Source of the DNA: Polytrichum commune
Lineage: Eukaryota > Streptophyta > Polytrichopsida > Polytrichales > Polytrichaceae
DNA: 64,000 bases
Direction: 5' to 3'
NCBI GenBank assembly: GCA_950295325.1
Contig: OX485807.1
Coordinates: forward strand, 49,816,440-49,880,439
In this document: positions 22,050 to 49,800 of the stretch, in pieces
Numbering within the stretch: position 1 is the first letter of the stretch
How the letters are laid out: every line of letters starts with the position of its first letter
Notes under the pieces: model-generated
The model's database searches: none
Seen by the model: only the letters and a program-made list of their open reading frames with translations
What the model was told of the DNA's origin: nothing
Position numbers and translations under genes: made by a program

Positions 22050-25000
22050 CTAAGGAAGAAATAGATGCATCAAGAGATCATAGGAAACAATTGTGGGAAA
22101 GAGGAAGAAGTTAGATGCAACCATTTTTAGGAGTTAAAGGAGGTTCAAATGTGTCTACAAAGGGCAAATTTGATACCGCTTTAGGATGGTTCTCACTCAA
22201 TCGTGATAGGGAGTTTCTTACATTGACAAAATATATTTGGGAAATTTCCTATTGAAAATCTCGACCTCATTCACCATCCACCTCCACATTCAATACCTCC
22301 TCATCTCTTCGAGTAACCCTTATAATTAACGTGCAAGCCAACCCATAGTTAACACCTTATATACCACCTATGAACCCAAATATAATACCAATTTCAATAT
22401 GGCAACTAATCCACCGCCTAGGATAATTAGTGTAGTTAATCTACCTTGTTTCCAAGATAGACCATGAACATATGTTCATGTTCATGTTAAAAAAATTAGA
22501 TTGCGTGTGTTGCAAATAATGTCGTTGTTGATAAACTGGTGGAAGTAGTTGTTGCTACTTTGCAACAAAACATGTTTTTGTGGGGTTTTTTTTTGTCAAG
22601 CACCTTTCGTTGATTGGGATGCCCTCAAAAAATGCATTTGTATTACATTTCAGACCCTTGGGGTTTGAGTTCAATTTAATGATAAACTTGAGAACCATCC
22701 AAATGTGTATAAATGAAAGCGTTGATAGTTATTGGGGAAGGATGAGTGATATATTGTTGAGAATGGGTAATCACCACACTCCCGATAACTTCATGAGAAT
22801 CTCCATGATAGAACGTACACCGGCTACTAGAGAGGATGCATTTGCACTTGCAAAGGCATGGGAGGAGTCTTGAGTAAAGGATTGTTATGTTTTTCATAAT
22901 TATAATTATGACCTATAATTACACATTGCATAGTCAATCATTGATGTACCCAAGAGGTAATCGATCCAATGATTGATGCCATGCAATTCAATCATCCCAA
23001 TGCCAATTTGTTTGTTCCACCAAAGTTTATATTGAAACCCCAACCGGTTGTTCAAACCACTCAACAAGATTTAGCTTTGATGGATATCACTAAGAAGATA
23101 ACCGAATTAGAAGTGAAAGTCACTAAAGGTGCAAACAAACAACCACAAGTGACCGAGGAAAGAACTAACATATGGTGTAACAATTGTAAAGGTCATGGAC
23201 ACTTGTCAAATGAATGTCCAAGCCCAAAAAGAATATGGATTAAACGCACCTTTTGCAAAGGGAAATATTCTATCAAAGAGTGTTGTAATTTGAACAAGAG
23301 TCGCGTGGGTAATCAAGTAGAAACTAATCAATCACGACCTTGGCAACAAGGGCATGTTGATGAAGGGCCAAATGCAAGCTATAACCCTAAGAGGAATTTT
23401 AATCGGCAACCAATACCTATTAATTTTGAAAATACACCTAGTTGGGGAAATATGAATCAATTGCCTAATTGGAATGGTCCACTATATAACCGCATAATCC
23501 AAAATCATATGGCACCAATGTGGAATCAATTTGTAGTATGTTTCCCTTGTGGTGAGATAGGTCATTACATGGGAGACTATCCCAACCCCATGAAAATACA
23601 ACAATACATCACATTATGTGGAAATTGTAAAGAGGCATGACACCCCATAATAGAATGCACCCAACAACATGAGGGTCCACCATCTACGAGAGATTGGAAG
23701 AAGGGTATACATGTTACTATACAATAGGACGAGGAAAGAAACCACAATGTTCACCAAGTGCAATATTATGAGGCGCAAGGAGAGATTCCTATAGTAGAAA
23801 TTGTGAATGTTGTTACTACTAGATTCAAACAACCACTTGCGAAAGAAATATAACAAGATGGGTATAGAATTGAGAGGTTTAATGCTCAACGTAGCAATGA
23901 AAGAACAAGTTCCTTTGCATTTGTGCCCAAAAACACAAATTAATTAAAGACCCCAAAATTTTCCCTGCAATGTTAGTGCACACTAAAATATTACTGGAAA
24001 AGGAGCATTGAATCCACTATAGTATATACATTTAAGGAATCTAATCTTCCCTCTCCCTTACCAAGTATTAACCCTCGATCCAATTTTACACATGCTCAAC
24101 AAAGTCCTCAATATAGTAAAACCCCTTTTGTCCAAACTCATAAATTAACCACCAAACCATTGTCATCTAGATCACCAAGATCAATGGCATTCTCCAAAGA
24201 TAAATATGGCATTATCCTTAAACCCTAGGATAGTATGGAAGACCTAGGTCGATTAGAACCGACTCTAACCATGAAGCACCCCAACAGTGGTTGGCTATAG
24301 CACCCCAATGTCCTAGCTCCTTGAGTACTTCCATATATGCAAAAGGACTAAACCTACAAAAGTGCATGATATTACTATGAGTCGTGATCCAAGAGCCCCT
24401 ACAGTTGATGAATCATTGGAGGTGCTCTTATCCCTAGTGTCAATTTGATAAATGTTGAGGCAATGAATGAATTAAGAATAACTAACATAGTTTCAACTAC
24501 CATTATTTTGAAAATGGCGGACTATAGCAAATGAAACCATGAAGAGTGTTGGAACAAGTCCCGACTTTCATTGCTAACATTAAATATAAAGTAAATCGCG
24601 TTTTGTGTAAAACAATGGATACCCTCTTTTACATATCTCCTAGGGCGCATGTGGTTACTAGATGCGCATGCAAAAGAAGATTGGGGGAAGGGCACTCTCA
24701 CAATTGGAAGAGGGTCTAAGAAAGTCACATTACCTTTGTTTCCTACCCAATATCACGGTGAAACTCGTAATAATGGTACTAGATTTACCAAAGATGATGG
24801 ATATGAAACATAGAAGGAGACGACTGTGAGTGAATCCATTCACAAAGAAAACGTTAAATTATTTATATTCATCTCTTTGGGATTGGGAGAATATTTTTGT
24901 GCACTTGGTCAAGGAGATTTTAACCATGCTATTTTAGCATCGGAGAACACCATGCCAGTATAAGTAGTTGCCACCCACAAGTTGTCATCATATAATTCTT

Positions 25001-26564: not shown

Positions 26565-26829
26565 GGGCCACTTCACACATAGGACTGAAAGCCCACAACC
26601 ATTACACTTCAAGCACTCTCATTGGTGGAAAACGCGGAGCCGGACTAAGTTCACTTCACATTACGCTTGAGGCACCAACGGAGTAAGTGAATGCAAGATG
26701 GATGTAAAGTCTACATGGATTCCTACATGGCATCAAATGGATCATGTTTCATGGTCACTTGGACTATTTTTAAAATCACTTCTTGGAGGTAGGCCTAACA
26801 CATAACCGGGAGACCAAGGCACTCTGAAC
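26565..26829. mobile_element. PIF/Harbinger-like MITE, family H1, right-truncated
   Basis: Begins GGGCCACTTCACACAT after TTA (26562-26564). It is colinear with 6600 to about 6866 and stops at 'cactctgaac', losing the right half. It sits at the right edge of a family G fragment. Confidence 0.65.
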
Positions 26830-27256
26830 TGTCGTGTAAATAGCGATTGTGTGTCACTGCAACTCGAGTACCAACCACCACTAACAAATAAAACTAAAAC
26901 ACACATACACAACACACCTACACATGCCCCCCCCCTTTGCTGACTATGGAGCCCCGCCAAGCAACTAGGACCAACGCCATTGCAAAGGGCATGGATAATG
27001 AATAATTGCTCCGCAACCAACTAGGGTGGTGAATGTCATTCCAAGGATTTGTAGGTTGGGTGCAGTGGGAGCCCCATCCTTAATCACTTCTGATGTTTGG
27101 CCATCAGATTTCGAAGAATTAATTCCACCATCTTGCGTTCAATCACGTCTTTAAACCATAACTCCTCATTTTCCACTTGGGCATGCACAACACGGTGTAA
27201 ACCACACATGATCGTTGAGTAGGATTGCTCAAGGCACTAGGTACCAAAGATCCTCA

Positions 27257-27391
27257 ACAACGCGGACAACTCCATTGTCCAGATGATAGAGGAGTCAAAG
27301 GTGGCCTCATGCATGCCATGTGCCAACCATGTTGACGTTGATCACACAAGAGCATAGTAATTGCTCCTTTCTTCTCCCCACACGTAAAACA
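27257..27391 (-). pseudogene. PHD-like zinc finger at the C-terminus of the integrase region
   Basis: In the reading 27631-27254, ligands follow the C4HC3 pattern: C81-x2-C84-x11-C96-x2-R99-x4-H104-x2-C107-x14-C122-x2-C125. It has the typical Trp before the His (GWHMAC) and a Trp two residues before the last Cys pair (W-S-C-P-R-C). Seven of eight ligands remain; the fourth Cys is Arg (CGT, one transition from TGT). PHD fingers usually read histone H3 tails, so in an integrase it could guide insertion (inference). A stop follows directly after the last Cys. Confidence 0.7.
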
Positions 27392-27640
27392 TGGACGACC
27401 TTGTGGCATGACGGCCAATACAAGATGAACTATACCTTTGATGGATACATGATGTTGGGCACAATTTTTTGAATTTTCGCGATCTTCCTTGTCATCCTTG
27501 CCTTCCACCAACAACACACCATTTGGCAACACCTCCTTCGTCCGAAGGATAGTGCGCCCATCCTTCACATCCAATGTCGTAGGTGCCTCACGTTGGAGAT
27601 AAACATAATCCCTTTGTTGGAATCTCTGCAACTAAGGTCG
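27392..27640 (-). pseudogene. Integrase C-terminal domain
   Basis: The first 80 codons of the reading 27631-27254 (DYVYLQREAPTTLDV... EVLPNGVLLVEGKDDK) resemble the small beta-barrel C-terminal domain of Ty3-type integrases, in which a 'GDxVYL' strand is followed by short strands. It joins directly to the PHD-like finger. There is no chromodomain. Confidence 0.55.
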
Positions 27641-27759
27641 GTAAGCACACTGCGAATGCGTGCATAGCGCATTGTGTCACAGTTCTAAGCAATAAACAAA
27701 TTTTCCATAGCCACAGGCATGGCCCTTTGGAAGAATTGAGTCCGCTTTTGCAAACACTC

Positions 27760-28620
27760 TGCCTAAGCGTTTGGATCATCCAAGTCCACGACATGAGCTA
27801 GTTTTTCTTGAATAGAACTCGAGAGTACATGCTCACGTCCATATAATAATTGATATGGGTTGTAGGATGCCAAAGATGGATGCCTACTAAATGAATAGCC
27901 CGTAGCAATCCAAGGCAACATAAGGTCCCAATCCCGGTGGCTCTCCCGAAGTAATCCATACTTTCCCAAGCCACGCTTGGTTGTCTGAACAATGCGTTCA
28001 GCCAAGCCATCCGCCTCCGGATGATCCCGCAATGTAGTACGGTGATCTATAAGAGCCTTAGTGCACGACTTCTCAAGAAAACTGAGGAACTCCCTCCCCT
28101 AGTCTGTCAATACTTTAGCCGGTGCTCCAAAACGTGCCAACACATGATCTAAAAAGGCTGTTGTAACCAACTCTGCATAATTTTGGGATAGAGCGACAAG
28201 CTCAATCCACTTGCTAGAATGCTCCACCATCACCAACACGTAGTTTGCTCCAAGTGGTATGACAACCAACGGTCCTACAAAGTTCAATGACCAACGGTAG
28301 CCGAGTTCCATGATAGGTAAGGGTTAGAGTTGAGGTAACAAGGTGTTGAAGATAGACCTGACCCGGTCACAAATTTCACACCTCCCAACATAAGTAACAA
28401 CCTGTTGATACATGCCAGTCCACCAATATTGGCTACGCAGCATCGGATGTGTCCTACGTATGCCAAAATGGCCAAGTTCCTCATGCACTTGCTGCACCAA
28501 AGACGCCCTTTGATTTGGTCCAGAAACAATTCGCCTTGTCCCATTCAACCATAATTGAAATAACAAACCGTTCTTCCAATGGAACCTTGTTATTTGATGT
28601 CCAATCTTATCCTTTTTCAT
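27760..28620 (-). pseudogene. Integrase zinc-binding and catalytic core
   Basis: The reading 28620-28324 has the HHCC zinc module (H-x4-H, then about 29 residues to C-x2-C, in HEELGHFGIRRTH... GRCEICDRV). The reading 28311-28099 continues as the catalytic core: the first Asp of the DDE triad is Asn (SLNFVGPL), and the second is kept (VLTD). The third acidic residue lies in 28032-27763 (GLAERIVQTTKRGL). An in-frame stop near 28100 and the D-to-N change show it is dead. Confidence 0.8.
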
Positions 28621-28869
28621 CGCCGAGATAGACAGGGGAAAGGTCCTATGTTGAAGCTTATGGAATACTAGAAGACCCTCTCATATATCCGCAATAGCTT
28701 GAGGTCGATTAGTCTCATCATCCGCGCCATGTATCGGAACCTTAACAGTGAAGCCAGAAAACAATGTCAGGTAGGCAACTGCGTGCCACCTGCAACCGCC
28801 TCTTGATCACAATGCCCATGACCCTCGAGTCCAAGCGGCCGGGAAAGGGGGGGAGGGGGGTTTAAGGCT

Positions 28870-29680
28870 TTAAACCTTCAATGAACCTTAAGTGACCATG
28901 TCCTCACCCATAGGGCCAATTGAAATATTTTGGACATTGTCAATATGTCACCCCCCACTAACCTGGCTCTAGTAAAGTCCTCGTCCAAAATACTTGGATT
29001 GCATGAGAGTCCATTTGCATCCAAATTGGTAATATCAACATGGTGTACTACCTTAGAGTCGTACTCCTGGAGTGATCCACCTGGCGAGCTTACCAGTAAG
29101 CTTATCCGACTCAATGAGCCATTGCAGATGCTGATGGGTTAGTCACAAAAGTAAAGTGATGACCCTAGAGATATGGCCGGAAATGGGCAATAACCCACAC
29201 TGCCGCCAACGTTTCTCCCTCATAGGACGATTAATTGGCCTCTGCAGTATTGTTGCAGAGTCATCATTTTGAGTGAGAACTTCTTCTAAACCCAATAAAG
29301 TCCAGTCCATATGCAACTAGAAAAATTTGGATACATCAGGATGTCGAATCATTAGAGCCGCACCCAGTCTCTGTTTCAATGTCTCAAATGCTTACTGCTC
29401 CTTACGACCCCAAGTCCAAGGTTGATCCTTGCTCGTGAGAATGGTGAGAGGCTTGGCGATCAAGCTAAAATTCTTGACAAATCGACAATAATAATTTGCC
29501 AAGCCCAAGAAAGCATGAAGTCTCGGCACATCAACCAAAGTTGAAATCTTCCGCAAGGTGTTCACCTTAGCTTGCTACACCCCAAGACCTCTTAGAATAA
29601 TCATATGACCTAAATATGCGAGTCGGTCATGGAGAAATTTGCACTTGCCATGTGCAAGTGCAATTCCTATCGCTGCAACT
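28870..29680 (-). pseudogene. RT connection and RNase H region
   Basis: The - strand reads LAYLGHMI..., then FLGLANYYCRFVKNFSLIAKPL and DQPWTWG, which are the connection motifs between Ty3/gypsy RT and RNase H. Next come an LHMDWTLLGLEEVLTQND block (RNase H first Asp region) and, in 29114-28878, a KVVHHVDITNLDANGLSCNP tail matching the end of RNase H (NxxADxLSR in intact elements). Several stops and a deletion between 29100 and 29260 are visible. Confidence 0.75.
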
Positions 29681-30350
29681 GTTAAAAAACAACTTGCAGA
29701 TGTCTCACTTGCTCCTGTGGTATCTTCCAGAAGATGATTACGTCATCAATGTAACACTGAGAAAATGGCAAGCTAAAGAAGACATGGTCCATCACTCTCT
29801 GAAACTCAGCAAGTGCATTCTTCAGGCCAAATGGAAGAAACTTCCAATGGTATGGTTGATCATTCCCATCCTGATTAATTTCCCATAATGTAGTTTTCAC
29901 TCGATCTCCTGTAAGTAATGGGGGCTGGTGATAGCCAGATCTCAAGTCCAGTGTGCTAAAAACTCGAGAAAATCCTATGGCATTGAACAACTCCTCCGGG
30001 ATTGGCATGTGATATCCATCCAACTTGGTCTTCCGGTTAACTGGACGGTAATCCCTGCACGTCCACTTCTCCGTCCAATTGCCAAAGATATCATTCTTTG
30101 ATGGCATAACCATAGCACAAACATGCTAACTGTTGGAGATTTCAATCACCATTGCTACCAAGAGCTCTCGGCAACGAGCCTGGATGCCAATCCACTCGGA
30201 GACACTAATCTTATAAGGTCTCCGCAAAATAGGATGGTCATCTTCCAACTGAATGTGAATGGGTTTTCCTTTATAGCCTTCAAGATCTTGAAGGCTAAAA
30301 GCAAAACACTTATGGTTCAACAAATGAACGCTCATACCTTCCATTTCTTA
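29680..30350 (-). pseudogene. Ty3/gypsy reverse transcriptase
   Basis: The reading 30344-30126 contains HIQLEDDHPILRRPYKISVSE, the N-terminal RT block. 30113-29682 contains CRDYRPVNRKTKLDGYHMPIPE, FSTLDLRSGYHQ (first catalytic Asp), FLPFGLKNALAEFQRVMD and CYIDDVIIF (YIDD at codons 121-124, 29753-29742). The core motifs are intact, but the two halves are in different frames and separated by stops. Confidence 0.88.
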
Positions 30351-30452
30351 GCACCAATGAGATGAGGGCCTAATTCCAATGGCCAGTCATCAAAGTTTGT
30401 AGTCTCCCTCTCCACCAAAGGAGAACCATGCCACCTGATGCTAGCACGGATT

Positions 30453-30690
30453 CTAACGGCTACTCATAGAAGGCGGCATTAGCCATGCCCCGGCCTGAGT
30501 GCTAGCAGTAAAGTCTGATCTCTCTTCATCACCACCAACATGTGATGATGAAGCCACCACCGGAGGTAAAGAATAAAATGAAACCATTCGTGGGAATATC
30601 CGTTGTGCGTCAATTCTCTCAAATTCAGAAGCCAAAGCAATATAAACCCGTTGAGCTCGAAGCTCCTCCATCACCTACTGCTCAAATCAA
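30453..30690 (-). pseudogene. Linker between methyltransferase-like domain and RT
   Basis: The reading 30674-30453 (MEELRAQRVYIALASEFER...) is continuous, in order, with the methyltransferase-like block upstream and RT downstream. I recognise no domain; it is presumably polyprotein spacer. Confidence 0.45.
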
Positions 30691-30779
30691 AAGATTCGTT
30701 CGGTTTTTACAACCATGGCCTCAACTCCCTCCTTCATGGATGTGGATTGCCGTGACCCTTTACTGAAAACCTCTGCACC

Positions 30780-32080
30780 TAGAAACAACAATTGGTCACC
30801 ACGATGCCTTTGCAATGCAAGGCATAAACCAACAGTGCACACCATGGTGATAGGATTCATAGCTTGGCCCAACACGAATTGTTATTGGCTCTCAAAATGG
30901 CCATGAGCTACTGTGGTTCCAGTCAGCAATCCCATGTCACGCTCCCATTCATTGGCAATGGGCTCACAATGGGTTTTAGTGTAAGCATCTCACACCATAC
31001 TAGGCCCCCAATCGCGAAATGCAAATGACTATGGAAAAGTCATAAAGGTTGGGAGGCCCTCCGTGGTGGCCCACTTTGTTGACGAATGCAAATGGGGGTA
31101 AATCATCTCGAACAACTAGCAAAGAGGTCCGGTTTGGATCCAAGATGTCATCCATCTTTTGATTAGAAGGTGGAGACACTGTAAAAAAATTGCATCTAAA
31201 ATGGATAGTGGTGTGAGGTTGGTCCAAAGTCACCGAAGATGGTGGAAATATGAACCAAGTACTGCGGCATTCACAAAAATGGGATTCCCAAGATGTTGAC
31301 AAGCATGATGTATGCCCTCCAACACCTTATTCCGAGAGTCTCCCAACAACGGTACATTATTGAGTATGTACCTTGGAGGGGAAGGTTAGTGGACAGACCA
31401 CCACTGCATGAGCCGGATGAGGTCGCAGAAAAAACTAGACCTGAGATCCTCTAAACCTTGACATGCTCCAACACGTGAGTGGCCCTAGCATGCCCATCCC
31501 GCAATCACCAGATCCACGGGCCCCAACCTTCATAAGTTTGCCTCAATGATAAGTGTAACATCACGAAGGAAACGTGCGGAGCACCCACGAATGGCCTTCG
31601 GGTCTAATTGTTGTGGGTTGAACACCATCAACTGGTGGAAATTGTGACGAGCCACACGGGTGGACACAGAACTGTCATTTACATATACATATTGTCGAAC
31701 CGTGAGGCCAACATCCAACACGGCCGCCAATCTTGTCCCAATGGCCACAAACAATTCCACCAAAGTGATCCCCTCGTCTGGCGGACACCATGGAATGAAA
31801 TGTGCCAACGCCAATGGGATATCCGGCATGACTGGTGGTGTAGAATCTAGTGAGAGGTCAATGTCCTCACACCTCTGGAATAGCTTTGCGGAGTTGCGCC
31901 ATGAAGGAAGAGGAACCTTGGGATGGCGCACCAATGCACCCTTAGGTGTCATCTCCCATTGATCCTCAGTACTCCCCATGAATGCCAATGTTTCCTCTAA
32001 TAAGGCGAAACCACATGGCAATGCGTCAATAGTAGCTTTACATCCAAAACCATGGATAATGGTGCTATGGTCGCGGCTAC
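30780..32080 (-). pseudogene. Cytosine-5 DNA methyltransferase-like domain inside the retrotransposon
   Basis: Motif I: TLVELFVAIGTRLAAVL (31766-31716) followed by RQYVYVNDSS, the AdoMet-binding strand-loop (family FxGxG; here AIGT). Motif IV: LVIAGWAC then a stop, then GHSRVG (about 31515-31465); the catalytic Cys codon is kept, but the preceding Pro is Ala. Motif VI: NNVPLLGDSR (31361-31332), where the ENV Glu is Asn. Motif VIII-like: LGSYFHHLR then LWTNL near 31250-31200. Motif X-like: LGQAMNPITMV (30875 downward). The order and ~430-codon span match a C5-MTase, and stops and frameshifts make it a pseudogene. Its position, between protease-type sequence and RT, places it in the pol polyprotein. 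Confidence 0.82.
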
Positions 32081-32159
32081 CGGAAACACCACAAAAATAG
32101 CTCCCTTCTGCCGTCCCCAACCAACCAACATGGTCGGATCCACGCCTCCTCAGTCTAGT

Positions 32160-32435
32160 TGTCCAAACCAAAACCAACCAGGCGTTGTGTGTATGGTGAA
32201 TGAAACCAACATTTTGGTAGCCAGTCGGGCTGGGGGCAACGCTATTCAGGTTGCTCCCCAATGTATGATGATGAATTTGGGGGCACAACCAGTTATGATC
32301 GGCAAAAGGCTTGCCCAGAAATTACAGTTGACGGTTGATGACTTGGCTCCCTGCCCATTTACCATCGTTACATCCATTGGTCACGTGGAACATGCCACTA
32401 ATTATACTCGGCAGCCATTACAACTTAGCTAATGA
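32160..32435 (+). pseudogene. Retroviral-type aspartic protease fragment, inverted relative to the element
   Basis: The + strand reading 32052-32432 ends with MMMNLGAQPVMIGKRLAQKL, PCPFTIVTSIGHVEHAT and GYTRQ-like text. This resembles the pepsin-like 'DxGAxxxxI' flap-and-core of retroelement proteases with the catalytic Asp replaced by Asn (NLGA). The sequence just below 32190 reads on the - strand as the segment that should follow protease (GLDN, stop, TEEAWIRP), so a short piece has been flipped. The part of the + strand ORF before about codon 37 is therefore antisense. Confidence 0.6.
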
Positions 32436-32699
32436 GTGAAACATGTATGGATGAAAACCCCCTGGATGTGGTGTGGCCGCCGACGCCGCATATCGTGACA
32501 CCACATTAATAATGATCACCTTTAATTGTCCACAAGTGCTCAACCAAGTCATTGCCTAGTTGATAGTGAGAGTTTGTTTGTTGGATCACGAGCAATTGTT
32601 GTGCAAACCTATCAAACGAGAGGAATATTGGAACCAACAAATTATCTAGTTAAGTTTACATCGGTGCCACCCAACAATTTGGATTCTTCATTGAGTCTT

Positions 32700-45200: not shown

Positions 45201-46032
45201 TCCGCAAGGGATTTGAACTCTGCCTGCCTGCCTGCCTGCTGCCTGCCTTTCTTCGATTGACTGGCTTCTTTCTGTCTATTTTCTTTCTTTGTCTACTCGA
45301 CTTGGTATGCATGCAGCAGAGGTCTTACTACTACTCTATTGTGTGCTCTTGTTGAGTCCTTTTTGCGGTGGTGGTTAGTAGTGGCGGGATAAGAAGATTA
45401 GATTCTTCTTCTTTCTCTTCTTCTTCGATTGGATTAGACTTGTCGATTTTGATGATGTGCAGCAACTTGAAGTGGCTACATGAAAATTTTTCATCAGCTG
45501 TGTGTCCACGAGGGGGTCCGCGGGCGGCCTCTTGAACGCCATTTTGTCTTGAATGGTGAGTTCATGGTTAACTGAATTCCGCTGTCGCATGCTCGCCTGG
45601 ACTTTTTCGGAAAGACTGAAATGTAGGGTAGCTGCCACAAAGAGTAGTGGCATGTCCAGCAATTTTGTGTCCATCGAGCTCTTCGAAACCCAGAGGTTGT
45701 AAACCCCCCCACATCCACACAACACCCAAAAAAAAAAAAACAAAAAAACAACACAACCAAACAAGTAGCGACACAGACAGACAGACAGATTCTCCATTCT
45801 CCATTCTCCATTCTCCATCCTCTTCTCTTCACATACACACAGGGAGGCAGCCAGTCAGCCAGGGAGATAGGTTGAGAGGAGGTTGAGCCGAGTATGTGCA
45901 AATCCGAGGTTGTGTGTATTGGATTTGCTTGGAATTTGTGAAAATCTTGTCAAGAAAGTTGCAAAGGTGAGAGTTTTGAGGGAGTATTAGTAGTTGTCCA
46001 GAGAGAGAGAGGATTGACAGAGGGAAAGGCGT
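42300..46032 (+). promoter_or_regulatory. Upstream region and probable 5' leader of TPS1, microsatellite-rich
   Basis: Lies directly upstream of the TPS1 start and contains many short perfect tandem arrays: (GAT)n near 42341-42366, (GGTTT)n near 42613-42650, (AGAGT)n/(GGGGT)n near 43465-43504, (CCCAT)n near 43965-43995, (GAAGT)n near 44007-44030, (GAGGA)n near 45050-45075, (CTGC)n near 45221-45235, (CAGA)n near 45775-45788, (CCATTCT)n near 45793-45818. Composition changes sharply from the AT-rich flank. In-frame stop TGA at 46015 sets the coding start. I cannot place a TSS or TATA box with confidence. A 5' UTR intron is possible but unsupported. No ORF here looks real. Confidence 0.5.
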
Positions 46033-46417
46033 ATGCCGTACTCTTGGTCATCAAAGCCTGCAGCCGAGAGGACGAAAGTATGGGAAGGAGAAGAAGGCTG
46101 CACGATTATTTCCCCCGAGGAGTTGAGCTACCGCCCTCCTCCATCTCCATCTCCCACTCCTAATCTAACCCGGACCACGTCTACTTCTCTGTGTGAGGAA
46201 CAAGAGGTAGGAGTAGAAGTAGAGGTAGCGGTGGTCCTGCCTCAGCCTGAGGTTCTTGCTACTACTAGACCCCGAGTTGTAGTGAATTCCCCCACTGTCC
46301 TCCCATCTTCACGCGTGAATTCACGTTTGAATAATAGGGACCACAGGCAGCACCAATTCCCAGCAGGGAGCGACAATAATTCCACGCTCGGTGATGAAGC
46401 AGCGGAGGGCAATCATC

Positions 46418-46448
<31 letters not shown>

Positions 46449-46822
46449 CAATCACAATCGCAGCAGTGGGAATCAGGAGGCTCTTGGGGGGAATGGGGGA
46501 ATGGATGGTGGAGGCGGGGAGCATCATCAAAACCATAACCAATACCAACATCAGCAACATCATCATCATCATCATCATCATCATCAGCAGCAACAGCAGC
46601 ATCCACATCGACGTGCATCTGCTGCGGAATCTGGAGGGGCCAGCCATCACCATAAGACCCCACGCATGGATGGCTATGACAGCTACAATTCCAACCAATT
46701 GCATGACCGAGGTGGGCAGAGGCTGTTGGTGGTGGCCAATCGCCTCCCTGTCTCCGCAATCTGGGATGGCCAGAAATGGGATCTCAAGCTCAGTGCTGGA
46801 GGGCTTGTCAGTGCTCTCTTAG
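46033..46822 (+). CDS. TPS1: TPS1 exon 1: low-complexity N-terminal extension and start of GT20
   Basis: Residues 1-228 form an extension unlike other TPS1 N-termini that I know. It has a Pro/Ser/Thr-rich part (35-55), a Val/Glu run (60-68), His tracts at about 128-142 and a His/Gln tract at 164-190 encoded by CAT/CAC/CAG microsatellite. I do not see the short Leu/Arg-rich motif found near the start of angiosperm TPS1. The GT20 fold begins at residue 230 (RLLVVANRLPVSA, the Arg/Asn loop for the phosphate and nucleotide), then LSAGGLVSALL. The exon ends in phase 1 at a Gly codon. Confidence 0.9.
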
Positions 46823-49800
46823 GTACACCACCATCTCTTTGTCACCCAAATTTCAATTCTTGTCATTTGGGCGAACCTGGATGGCTACTTTCCTCCTCCA
46901 TCTGCTCACCCATCCTGAGCTCTGAATCAATGAATGCTGAGTCGCAGCATACATACAGATTCTGTTGGGTTCGGTTCCTGTTGCAAAGTTGTTGTCTTTT
47001 TTTTTGTGTGTGTGTGTGTGTGGGGATGTGCATCTCGATTCTGGGTGATCAATGTGAAATGTAGTGGCTCAATTTTCAGAATCGTCCTAATTGTCAATGT
47101 TTCCAATGTTAGGTTAGGTTGTTGGTTGTTTCCAGAAACAAGTTTAGGTAGCATAGAGTTGGTTGGGGGTGAGGTCAGTGAGTCTAATTCTGTTGAAGAA
47201 GATAAGTTTGCTTCTGTTTTTTTAATTTTTTATTTGTGTTTGTGTGTGTGTGTGTGTGTGTCTGTGTTATCTATGTGTTGTTTGTGTTGTTGTACTCACT
47301 GGTGTCATGTTTGTGTCCATGTACTTTTTGCGCATGACTATTCCAGGGGTCAGCTACTATTCCAGAATGGCTGCAACTGAGTGAGCTCTTCTTCTAAGAG
47401 TGGAGAGTCTGTTCTGCTGCAGGTGTGAAACAGAACTTTGAGACGAGGTGGATTGGGTGGGCAGGCGTCAGTGTTCCAGATAAAGACAAAGACAAACTGA
47501 TAGATTCACTGGCTTCGAAGGTTGGTTGGTTGGTTCTATTTTTCTTTGCTTCGCTTCGCTTTTTTCTATTTTATAAAATTTTCTAAATAGTTCTCAAGTT
47601 ACACCAAGTTTTCAGTCTGGTAGCAGAGAGGAAGAGATTTCAGTAACTGGGATCATTTGGAGTTTCTGTCTTCAACAATAGAGGGAGAATCAGAATTTGA
47701 GAGTATTTCTGTGACGCTGGACCACTGGAGTGTATATACGTTAGTTGATTGAAGGGTTTTTAATGGCGACGTGTGTCTCGATGATTCTCTTTTCAGGTTT
47801 TAGTGCTTGCATTCTATTCGATTGTGATAGACACAAGGCTCGCTACTATCGAAAGGATAGAAAAGAATAATCTGAAGAGGGGGAGTTTTTAGGGAGCCCA
47901 AAATAGATGGCTCCTGCTACAATTGTTTGTTGGATCAACTGACAGGCGTATGTAAGAGTGACAGCAGTAGTATTAATAATTACCACTGTTATACTTACTA
48001 ATTACGAGCTACTGTAGTGAGTCATTACCATGAGTGTGTGAATATAAGTGTAACTGACATTTGTTGTTGGTTTCCAGGGCTGTGTTCCAGTATTTTTAGA
48101 AGATGACATTGCTGATCAGTACTACAATGGGTACTGCAACAATGTCCTTTGGCCATTATTCCATTATATTGGGCTACCTCAGGAGGATCGTCTGGCGGCC
48201 ACCCGGAGCATGGACTCACAATTCTCAGCCTACGAGGCGGCCAACGAGGCATTTGCTGAGGTTGTTCTCAAGCAATATCAGGTAAGAAAGATGTGACGAC
48301 ATACTTTCTAGGTTACCGGACTTCCACCACAACTTAAACCTTGAATAAGTTGTCATTGTTGGGATGACGACATGTTAGCTCTTTGAGAGTAGTAGTCAAG
48401 CTGAAATCTCCTGAGACCATAATTTATGTGAATAGGTTGGTGTCACTTCTTGCAATTTGTTTTTATGTTCCCCCCACCCTTGATTTCTGTAGATCAATTA
48501 GAGACAGTATTTGATTTCATTCAATTGGATGTGAACCTCTCTTTGTAATGTTTTACCAGGAAGGTGATGTGGTGTGGTGTCACGATTATCACCTCATGTG
48601 CCTCCCAAAGTACTTGAAGACCAAAAATCCCCACATGAAAGTCGGATGGTTTCTTCATACTCCATTCCCGTCGTCAGAGATATTTCGGACTTTGCCACTG
48701 CGGTCAGAGCTCTTGAAGGCCGTCCTCACGGCTGATTTGATTGGGTACGTTGTTTTATGCAGAATGAGCGTGTGCATGTTAAATAAGTTGTTGTAGTAAC
48801 GAATTCTTAACTCTTAGGGGTGTGAATATTTGGCCTGCAATCACAGTTCAGCTTCTGTAGTTAGTGCAATAAAGTTATCCTTTAAATTACTGGGACTTTT
48901 TGTTTGGAGTTGGTCCCCCATGATATTCCATTGGTTGTTTTGCGTACAATATCAATAGTTTCTTTCCACTTGTGGTGCATTTTCGGAATTCAGTGTTTGA
49001 ATTTGAATGAAGTTTTGAGGTGCTGTCTTTTTAAGGGGCTTACGTGGAGAATGCCCATGATATTGCAGATTCCACACTTATGACTATGCAAGGCATTTTG
49101 TCAGTGCCTGTACACGCATTTTGGGTCTGGAGGGCACACCAGAGGGAGTGGAGGATCAAGGAAAGCTCACCCGTGTTGCAGCTGTATGGTCTCAATATCC
49201 AAATGATAACTTAATGTTGTTTGATTGTAACAAGTTAAATTGTATCATTGCAAGGTATGCTACTTTTCTTTGTACATGATATGGTTTTCACTTGGATATT
49301 TCTCGCTCCTGTACTGAAGTAAGGGTAATTTGATTGTGGTTCAGTTTCCCATTGGTATCGACCCAGAGAGGTTTATCCAGGCGCTTGAGACAGAGCCAGT
49401 CAAATTGCATATAGAAGAGTTGAGAAAATTTTTCAATGGTCGCAAGGTACATTCCTACACATCTGTTAGTTACCTGGGTTGATTTAAGTGTCCCAAGTCA
49501 AAGAGTTTGTTACAAAAGGCTAGTCATGGTCTGATGAATCTTCAGTCCTTGTCAGATTAAAAAATTATGCGATGCCCAAATCCTATTCATTGTGGTCACC
49601 ATGACCTCCCAAACATCCATACAGCAGGTGGGAGGAGGAAGAGGTTCCAACTGGTTGCTTAAACAAGTCCACTAATTAGGTTTTAGTGATTTGAACCACT
49701 TCCTTGAGAGCCATGGGAATGAGATTTTGAAGAATTTCATTGCTGTGGAAGATGACACATAGCAATAAAATAAAGTTGAAGCAGTTTCTTTTTCATCTGA

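Follow-up and report, generated by a model that had tools for sequence, protein, structure and literature searches.

A decayed methyltransferase-bearing retroelement in the window

The window, by which we mean the whole 64,000-nucleotide stretch of Polytrichum commune DNA analysed here, carries the remains of a Ty3/gypsy retroelement in which a cytosine-5 DNA methyltransferase (MTase) domain lies beside reverse transcriptase (RT) (Table 1). This copy is dead, with many stops and frameshifts and an inverted piece of its protease, and gag was not found in the window on mapping with the frames of an intact relative. Amino acids 810-1362 of the first open reading frame (ORF1) and 10-1048 of the second (ORF2) of an intact relative cover the minus strand of the window by tblastn. 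The alignment of ORF1 residues 854-1362 with positions 32048-30468 (58.6% identity, E 1e-170) excludes a chance resemblance to MTases, a reading that was accordingly rejected. The RT, the H2C2 domain and the PHD finger all follow the MTase on the minus strand, in keeping with the preliminary description, in which the MTase shared the orientation of RT and integrase and the PHD finger went unmentioned; the protease-type sequence that it placed beside the MTase is indeed there, but as an inverted fragment on the plus strand. The integrase core piece of the copy (27763-28098) was not matched by the Pfam rve profile and is covered by tblastn, while the A repeat described below was not found in the window by blastn at E 1e-3.

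Table 1. Parts of the decayed element copy, in window coordinates
Feature	Position	Strand	Evidence
B repeat (B1), with the G-run (polypurine tract) before it	26830..26919	-	blastn 84%
ORF2 remnant: RT, RNase H, integrase, PHD finger	27215..30427	-	tblastn, ORF2 aa 10-1048; Pfam
PHD finger, integrase C-terminus	27257..27391	-	PF00628 2.2e-8, residues 81-125 of 27254-27631, cut-off passed
Integrase H2C2 zinc-binding domain	28324..28680	-	PF17921 8.7e-18, cut-off passed
RT core	29682..30125	-	PF00078 8.8e-14, cut-off passed
TAG-CCG-TTA at the ORF1/ORF2 boundary, a decayed version of the putative leaky stop TAG-CARYYA	30454..30462	-	junction comparison
Decayed Dnmt3-like C5-MTase domain	30741..31832	-	tblastn, PF00145, DNMT3A; both ends interpolated from tblastn
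Remnant between protease and MTase (ORF1 aa 810-841)	32083..32178	-	tblastn
Protease fragment (ORF1 aa 690-778), in opposite orientation to the other parts	32175..32441	+	74% identity, 3.8e-35

The MTase remnant retains motifs I, IV, VI, VIII and X in their normal order, despite stops and compensating frameshifts. The domain thus lies near the minus-strand interval 30780..32080 in which these motifs had been read from the letters, and it measures about 346 codons, in place of the approximately 430 estimated there. Searched against Pfam and the PDB as one frame with its stops written as X, it reached 20.1 bits (E 4.6e-4) with PF00145, below the curated cut-off of 22, and its best PDB matches were DNMT3A and DNMT3B (1.5e-4). 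The relatives score 39.5-51.7 bits with the same profile (39.5-47.6 in a set of four), so that the Pfam match expected in the preliminary description is obtained for the family, but not for the window copy itself. Motif IV reads AGWAC-stop-GHSR in this copy as against AGWPCQGHSR in the relatives, motif VI reads NNV as against ENV, and motif VIII is interrupted by a stop. Relative to three intact copies, C-to-T changes in the window copy (26800-32190, minus strand) affect 104/452 CG, 108/421 CHG and 166/1639 CHH positions, transitions of A and T standing at 0.067-0.077. Such an excess at CG and CHG is the trace that long silencing by methylation of these sites leaves in a copy; although it carried an MTase, the element was thus not protected from host-type methylation or from decay.

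The host genome and other sequences of the window

The host genome, as searched, comprises 407.8 Mb in 64 contigs, 406.1 Mb of it in seven contigs, the window lying in the one designated C5. A profile search located four SAM_LFY places in it, which marks the host as a streptophyte, LEAFY not being known outside that group. The N-terminal DNA-binding exon of one of the four matched the PDB entry 4bhk best (1.2e-32), with 9fwy and 9g19 at 2.5e-29, 2vy1 at 2.6e-24 and 8s8q poorly, at 1.9e-7. We take 4bhk to be the LEAFY of the moss Physcomitrella, 2vy1 that of Arabidopsis and 8s8q an algal protein, and the fit to 4bhk over 8s8q supports the land-plant host that had been suggested for the MTase-bearing element and makes a moss likely. 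The SAM exon, which matched a single PDB chain, GinLFY, is not discriminating. A DRM exon query found only two DRM genes in the host (on C2 and C5) and a third, apparently decayed copy on C6 (G000 C6:4825121-4825288, L076).

Elsewhere in the window, a gag-like frame with a CCHC zinc knuckle occupies 22945-23637 on the plus strand (PF00098 2.4e-4, 21.5 bits, cut-off 20.8) and apparently belongs to another retroelement. The frame at 46018-47061, also on the plus strand, includes the stretch RLLVVANRLPVSAIWDG...AGGLVSALLG, which presumably resembles the start of a plant trehalose-6-phosphate synthase; this frame had no Pfam match at 0.01.

A large family in which the methyltransferase is joined to RT

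A search of the host genome with the N-terminal piece of the MTase returned at least 145 scored places among 917 candidates, and the PF00145 profile at least 123 among 353, one of which is a host DRM exon. Of the rows from the first search, at least 13 fall in frames of at least 1300 aa, and at least 11 of these are without a stop in the matched stretch. At least two subfamilies are present in the host, A (frames of approximately 1366 aa) and B (1386 aa), which share about 62% identity in the MTase domain and about 90% in RT-RNaseH. A third lineage, L072, occupies CADCWO010000201.1:1-8206, a contig filed under the cyanobacterial (Synechococcales) MAG AVDCRST_MAG81; it has the same two frames and domains as the host copies, and we infer that it is misbinned eukaryotic DNA. 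The MAG itself probably contains streptophyte-type contamination, since L072 is a eukaryote-type retroelement coding region. Contig C4 gave the uncounted impression of many lower-scoring, stop-bearing MTase copies, as if old copies were kept longer there.

The element copies read gag-protease-MTase, UAG, RT-RNaseH-integrase-PHD in one frame (L010, L012, L013 and L072). ORF1 contains two zinc-knuckle motifs, a DSGA protease motif and the MTase, and ends in TAG, the Pfam matches of its zinc knuckle and protease lying below the cut-offs; by Pfam, ORF2 contains RT, RNase H, H2C2, rve and PHD. The order protease-RT-RNaseH-integrase, with the protease upstream and below its cut-off, is that of Ty3/gypsy elements (Pfam, ORF2 of L013 and L072), and among the PDB matches listed the RT is nearest to Ty3 (2.7e-72), far ahead of other chains. 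At 40 distinct junctions the MTase is linked with the beginning of ORF2, and retrieved host copies, as well as L072 from a second organism, show it linked with full RT frames. The C5-MTase is a standing part of the Ty3/gypsy family to which the window element belongs, which supports the interpretation given in the preliminary description; the search of the genome for intact copies, which that description had suggested, found MTase and RT linked in them, and a chance MTase insertion unlinked to RT was rejected on that ground. No viral contig carried the window piece or matched the integrase-PHD profile, and the MTase profile found six loci in viral contigs, over short stretches only (31-58% identity).

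Type and constraint of the methyltransferase

A profile of 22 open MTase domains scored DNMT3A (2.3e-12) above DRM (8.2e-8) and HhaI (~8e-6), by which a DRM-type or bacterial-type enzyme was rejected. The motifs of the element MTase run from I to X, as against the rearranged order, read by eye, of the host DRM genes, in which VI-X precede I-IV. In a Foldseek search with the predicted structure, a weak model (pLDDT 51), all of the best 50 PDB matches listed were DNMT3 entries.

The MTase frame is open at 22 of the 40 loci examined (42 loci, less one duplicate and one failed extraction). PCQ is the same in all 22 open domains and ENV in nearly all, and the catalytic motifs are also present in L072. 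Ka/Ks of the MTase is 0.245 within subfamily A (63/66 pairs), 0.454 within subfamily B (41/45) and 0.116 between them, the last value being drawn from 70/120 usable pairs with Ks of about 2.4, near saturation. RT-RNaseH gave 0.027 between the subfamilies (four A copies against one B copy). The MTase is thus under purifying selection, yet evolves faster than RT; its value between the subfamilies being about four times that of RT, it is the less constrained of the two.

An in-frame UAG between the two frames

The MTase had been described as joined to RT by a linker, which proved not to be the case: in intact copies an in-frame UAG separates the two. The junctions were compared in 43 loci and the window, which gave 42 rows (L003, L008 and L021 are without a covering alignment), reduced to 40 once duplicates were removed (the window copy is L001, and L012 is L031). 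TAG is present at all 40 distinct junctions, and CARYYA directly follows it at 38 of them, copies within a subfamily being related, so that the independent comparisons are those between A, B and L072. The six bases are CAATCA in 18 copies, CAATTA in 15, CAGTTA in five, CCGTTA in the window copy and TAGTTA in L004; in L072 the TAG is followed by CAATCA, which fits CARYYA. The codons around TAG-CARYYA differ between A and B.

The frame was checked in 39 junction rows, with L072 and the duplicate L031 included and L002 missed by the filter, and was scored as open where at least 300 codons preceded the TAG and at least 100 codons, or the remainder of the locus, followed it. It is open on both sides in 18 of the 39 rows, corresponding to 17 distinct copies (seven of A, nine of B and L072) in which no stop but the UAG was seen around the junction. 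The remaining 21 rows carry an additional stop or frameshift close by: in L009 and L011, for example, a lesion just upstream of the TAG closes the frame, and in L035, which is also L055, a second stop follows the TAG by 37 codons. These extra lesions are expected of decaying copies, but are no proof of function.

At the level of the nucleotide sequence, UAG-CARYYA and an open frame beyond it correspond to the features of readthrough of the tobacco mosaic virus (TMV) type. SIRE1 is a further readthrough candidate. According to the accessible parts of PMC2754532, UAG followed by CAR YYA is the context required in TMV, and rice gypsy elements have been proposed as readthrough candidates (work cited in PMC2754532). 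The present stop is unlike that of TMV in what it divides, namely Gag-Pro-MTase from RT-integrase.

Ends, repeats and putative primer site

The element does not carry full identical LTRs at both ends, the 5' end having the A repeat only. The arrangement A-internal-B-GC-A-B was found in four copies of subfamily A and five of subfamily B (with B2 partly covered in one of the latter), the A repeat measuring approximately 333 or 432-453 bases and the B repeat approximately 106. The B1-GC-A2 joint is present in nine of the 11 copies examined; the other two, of subfamily B and located on C2 and C6, are without A2-B2. The outer termini are TGTC...GACA, and a perfect 4-bp target duplication flanks all ten copies in which both ends are visible, the eleventh being without its 3' end in the retrieved stretch. 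Two of these ten, both of subfamily B, are A-internal-B copies without terminal repeats. Tyrosine recombination is not known to give target duplications. The family works like an LTR element, but with permuted ends.

In four subfamily A copies, A1 is separated from A2 by 0-2 differences in 330 positions (99.4-100%). The repeat identities of subfamily B copies are 64/64, 295/295, 279/279 and 387/388, with 99.2% and only two gap positions in L056/57; these insertions are therefore young. Direct repeats approximately 160-230 bases apart were noticed beside one young element copy (L013 8877-9901, L050/L051).

A G-rich tract stops directly before B1. The bases directly 3' of the A repeat are perfectly complementary over 13-15 nt to a site within A at seven of seven loci from three lineages; the complementarity lies at offset 0, is accompanied by matching changes between lineages and was reproduced in 0/1000 single-base shuffles per locus. 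The pairing site within A lies at about position 124-127 in subfamily A and 189 in B. An ordinary tRNA primer was rejected by eye, the site beginning ACTTGRCAA and pairing with A. With a polypurine tract before B1 and a putative self-primer site after A, B-GC-A is framed as an ordinary LTR for reverse transcription, and the integrated ends consequently lie inside it, at the palindrome GACA-GC-TGTC of the B/A joint, which is kept in L072. Self-priming in place of a tRNA primer site is described for Tf1-like elements (accessible parts of PMC6317226).

Discussion

We propose that the element in the window is very probably a dead and rearranged member of a large land-plant Ty3/gypsy family in which a Dnmt3-type MTase ends the Gag-protease frame, a leaky UAG-CARYYA follows it and integration takes place inside the LTR. 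A minority of ribosomes would pass the UAG into RT-RNaseH-integrase-PHD. Because the MTase lies upstream of this putative leaky stop, it would be made at the level of Gag and packed into every particle, RT and integrase being the minor readthrough product. Reverse transcription would be self-primed in the manner of Tf1, with B-GC-A serving as an ordinary LTR, and the integrase would act at the palindrome GACA-GC-TGTC inside this LTR rather than at its ends. Most simply, one- or two-LTR circles would be opened at the palindrome, two-LTR circles yielding A-internal-B-GC-A-B copies and one-LTR circles yielding A-internal-B copies without terminal repeats. The family would then be a natural case of integration through a circle junction, a route that was once proposed, and then dropped, for retroviruses. 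Recycling schemes other than circle opening are possible, and recombination between B1 and B2 after insertion could also be the source of the copies without terminal repeats. By analogy with what has been proposed for the published counterparts, the packaged MTase may methylate the element's own new DNA before or during integration, an idea to which we give roughly even chances. The combined scheme, in which the integration sites have moved inside the element's own LTR and the termini meet there head to head as the palindrome, circles are opened at it and a Gag-level Dnmt3 pre-methylates the packaged DNA, is more tentative, and we would sooner doubt it than assert it.

It is rather unlikely that the MTase acts instead on the host, allowing the element to escape silencing by a shift in host CG methylation or by competition with the host enzymes that silence it. 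The family has a high copy number, several of its insertions are young (A1/A2 99.4-100% in four copies of subfamily A) and an enzyme made at the level of Gag would, on the leaky-stop model, be plentiful, all of which would suit such an activity; however, the one old copy examined bears, at CG and CHG, the deamination pattern that silencing leaves, and the published methylome of Klebsormidium is, in the accessible parts of PMC5890265, not unusual. As for the UAG, its presence at 40 of 40 distinct junctions and that of CARYYA at 38 of 40, with neighbouring codons that differ between A, B and L072, render a chance stop improbable, ORF2 being expressed by internal initiation or splicing in that case. 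Random stops do occur in many plant LTR elements, according to the accessible parts of PMC6317226, and additional stops or frameshifts lie close to the junction in 21 of the 39 rows; against this, 17 distinct copies of three lineages have TAG as the sole stop in a frame that is open before and after it. Slightly harder still to defend is the notion of the MTase as a passenger gene, captured once, now decaying and without a role for the element. The window copy is dead, and the MTase evolves faster than RT, with a Ka/Ks of 0.45 within subfamily B, but 22 open domains, drawn from two subfamilies about 62% identical, show little or no variation in the catalytic motifs, which are also present in L072, Ka/Ks between A and B is 0.116 and 22 of the 40 loci examined have an open MTase frame. 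Integration by a tyrosine recombinase, suggested by split A-B-A-B repeats laid out as in DIRS elements (as described in PMC5890265), is barely credible and was rejected, since ORF2 encodes an rve-type integrase with H2C2, Pfam detected no tyrosine recombinase in the frames scanned and 4-bp target duplications flank 10/10 copies with both ends visible.

The closest known system, as set by published descriptions, is KnitGypsy-Dnmt3 of the charophyte Klebsormidium nitens (de Mendoza et al. 2018, PMC5890265), which likewise combines Ty3/gypsy coding domains, an intronless, non-rearranged Dnmt3-like MTase under purifying selection (Ka/Ks below 0.2 in Klebsormidium) and DIRS-like repeats. The present family is probably of the same kind, judged by that description. 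It differs in being large and in a land plant, and in the position of the MTase, which here lies in the Gag-protease frame before the putative leaky UAG and there in the Pol polyprotein ORF (accessible parts of PMC5890265). The main text of PMC5890265 mentions neither PHD nor readthrough for KnitGypsy-Dnmt3, and its accessible account of that element contains no self-primer, palindromic joint or 4-bp duplications. SymbioDIRS-Dnmt3 of dinoflagellates resembles the present family in having a Dnmt3-like MTase in a retroelement and A-coding-B-A-B repeats, but is a DIRS element with a tyrosine recombinase, whose MTase is described as acquired independently (PMC5890265, same parts). A 2025 survey of DNA methyltransferases again places DNMT3 members in retrotransposons of dinoflagellates and streptophytes and classes the LTR elements among these as Copia, and its accessible parts present no land-plant case (PMC12344493); those of a 2019 survey of plant LTR elements do not mention PHD, readthrough, Klebsormidium or methyltransferase (PMC6317226). 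Titles and the starts of abstracts in the open-licence literature yielded no land-plant MTase-bearing retrotransposon. Relative to the published description of KnitGypsy-Dnmt3, the land-plant host would be new, as would the placement of the MTase with Gag before a putative leaky stop, the putative self-primer and an integration site that is palindromic and lies within the LTR.

Tf1/sushi elements and Tcn1 chromoviruses, like the present family, have a chromatin reader at the end of their integrase, a chromodomain in theirs and a PHD finger here; the MTase and the split repeats also set the present family apart. What it would share, in addition, with Tf1/sushi and the plant Tcn1 chromoviruses is self-priming instead of a tRNA primer site (accessible parts of PMC6317226).

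Through the palindromic joint, an ordinary integrase could coexist with repeats of the DIRS-like type, which reopens the question of integration from circles. The leaky stop, if true, predicts that the MTase is a component of the particle and not a rare replication enzyme. DNA methylation is a main weapon of plants against transposons. An element with its own conserved de novo methylase is a paradox, known before from an alga and from dinoflagellates, and such an element may mark its own copies or disturb host silencing. The present land-plant family, which is large and has been active recently, provides a system in which this paradox can be tested, mosses being culturable, editable and amenable to methylation profiling.
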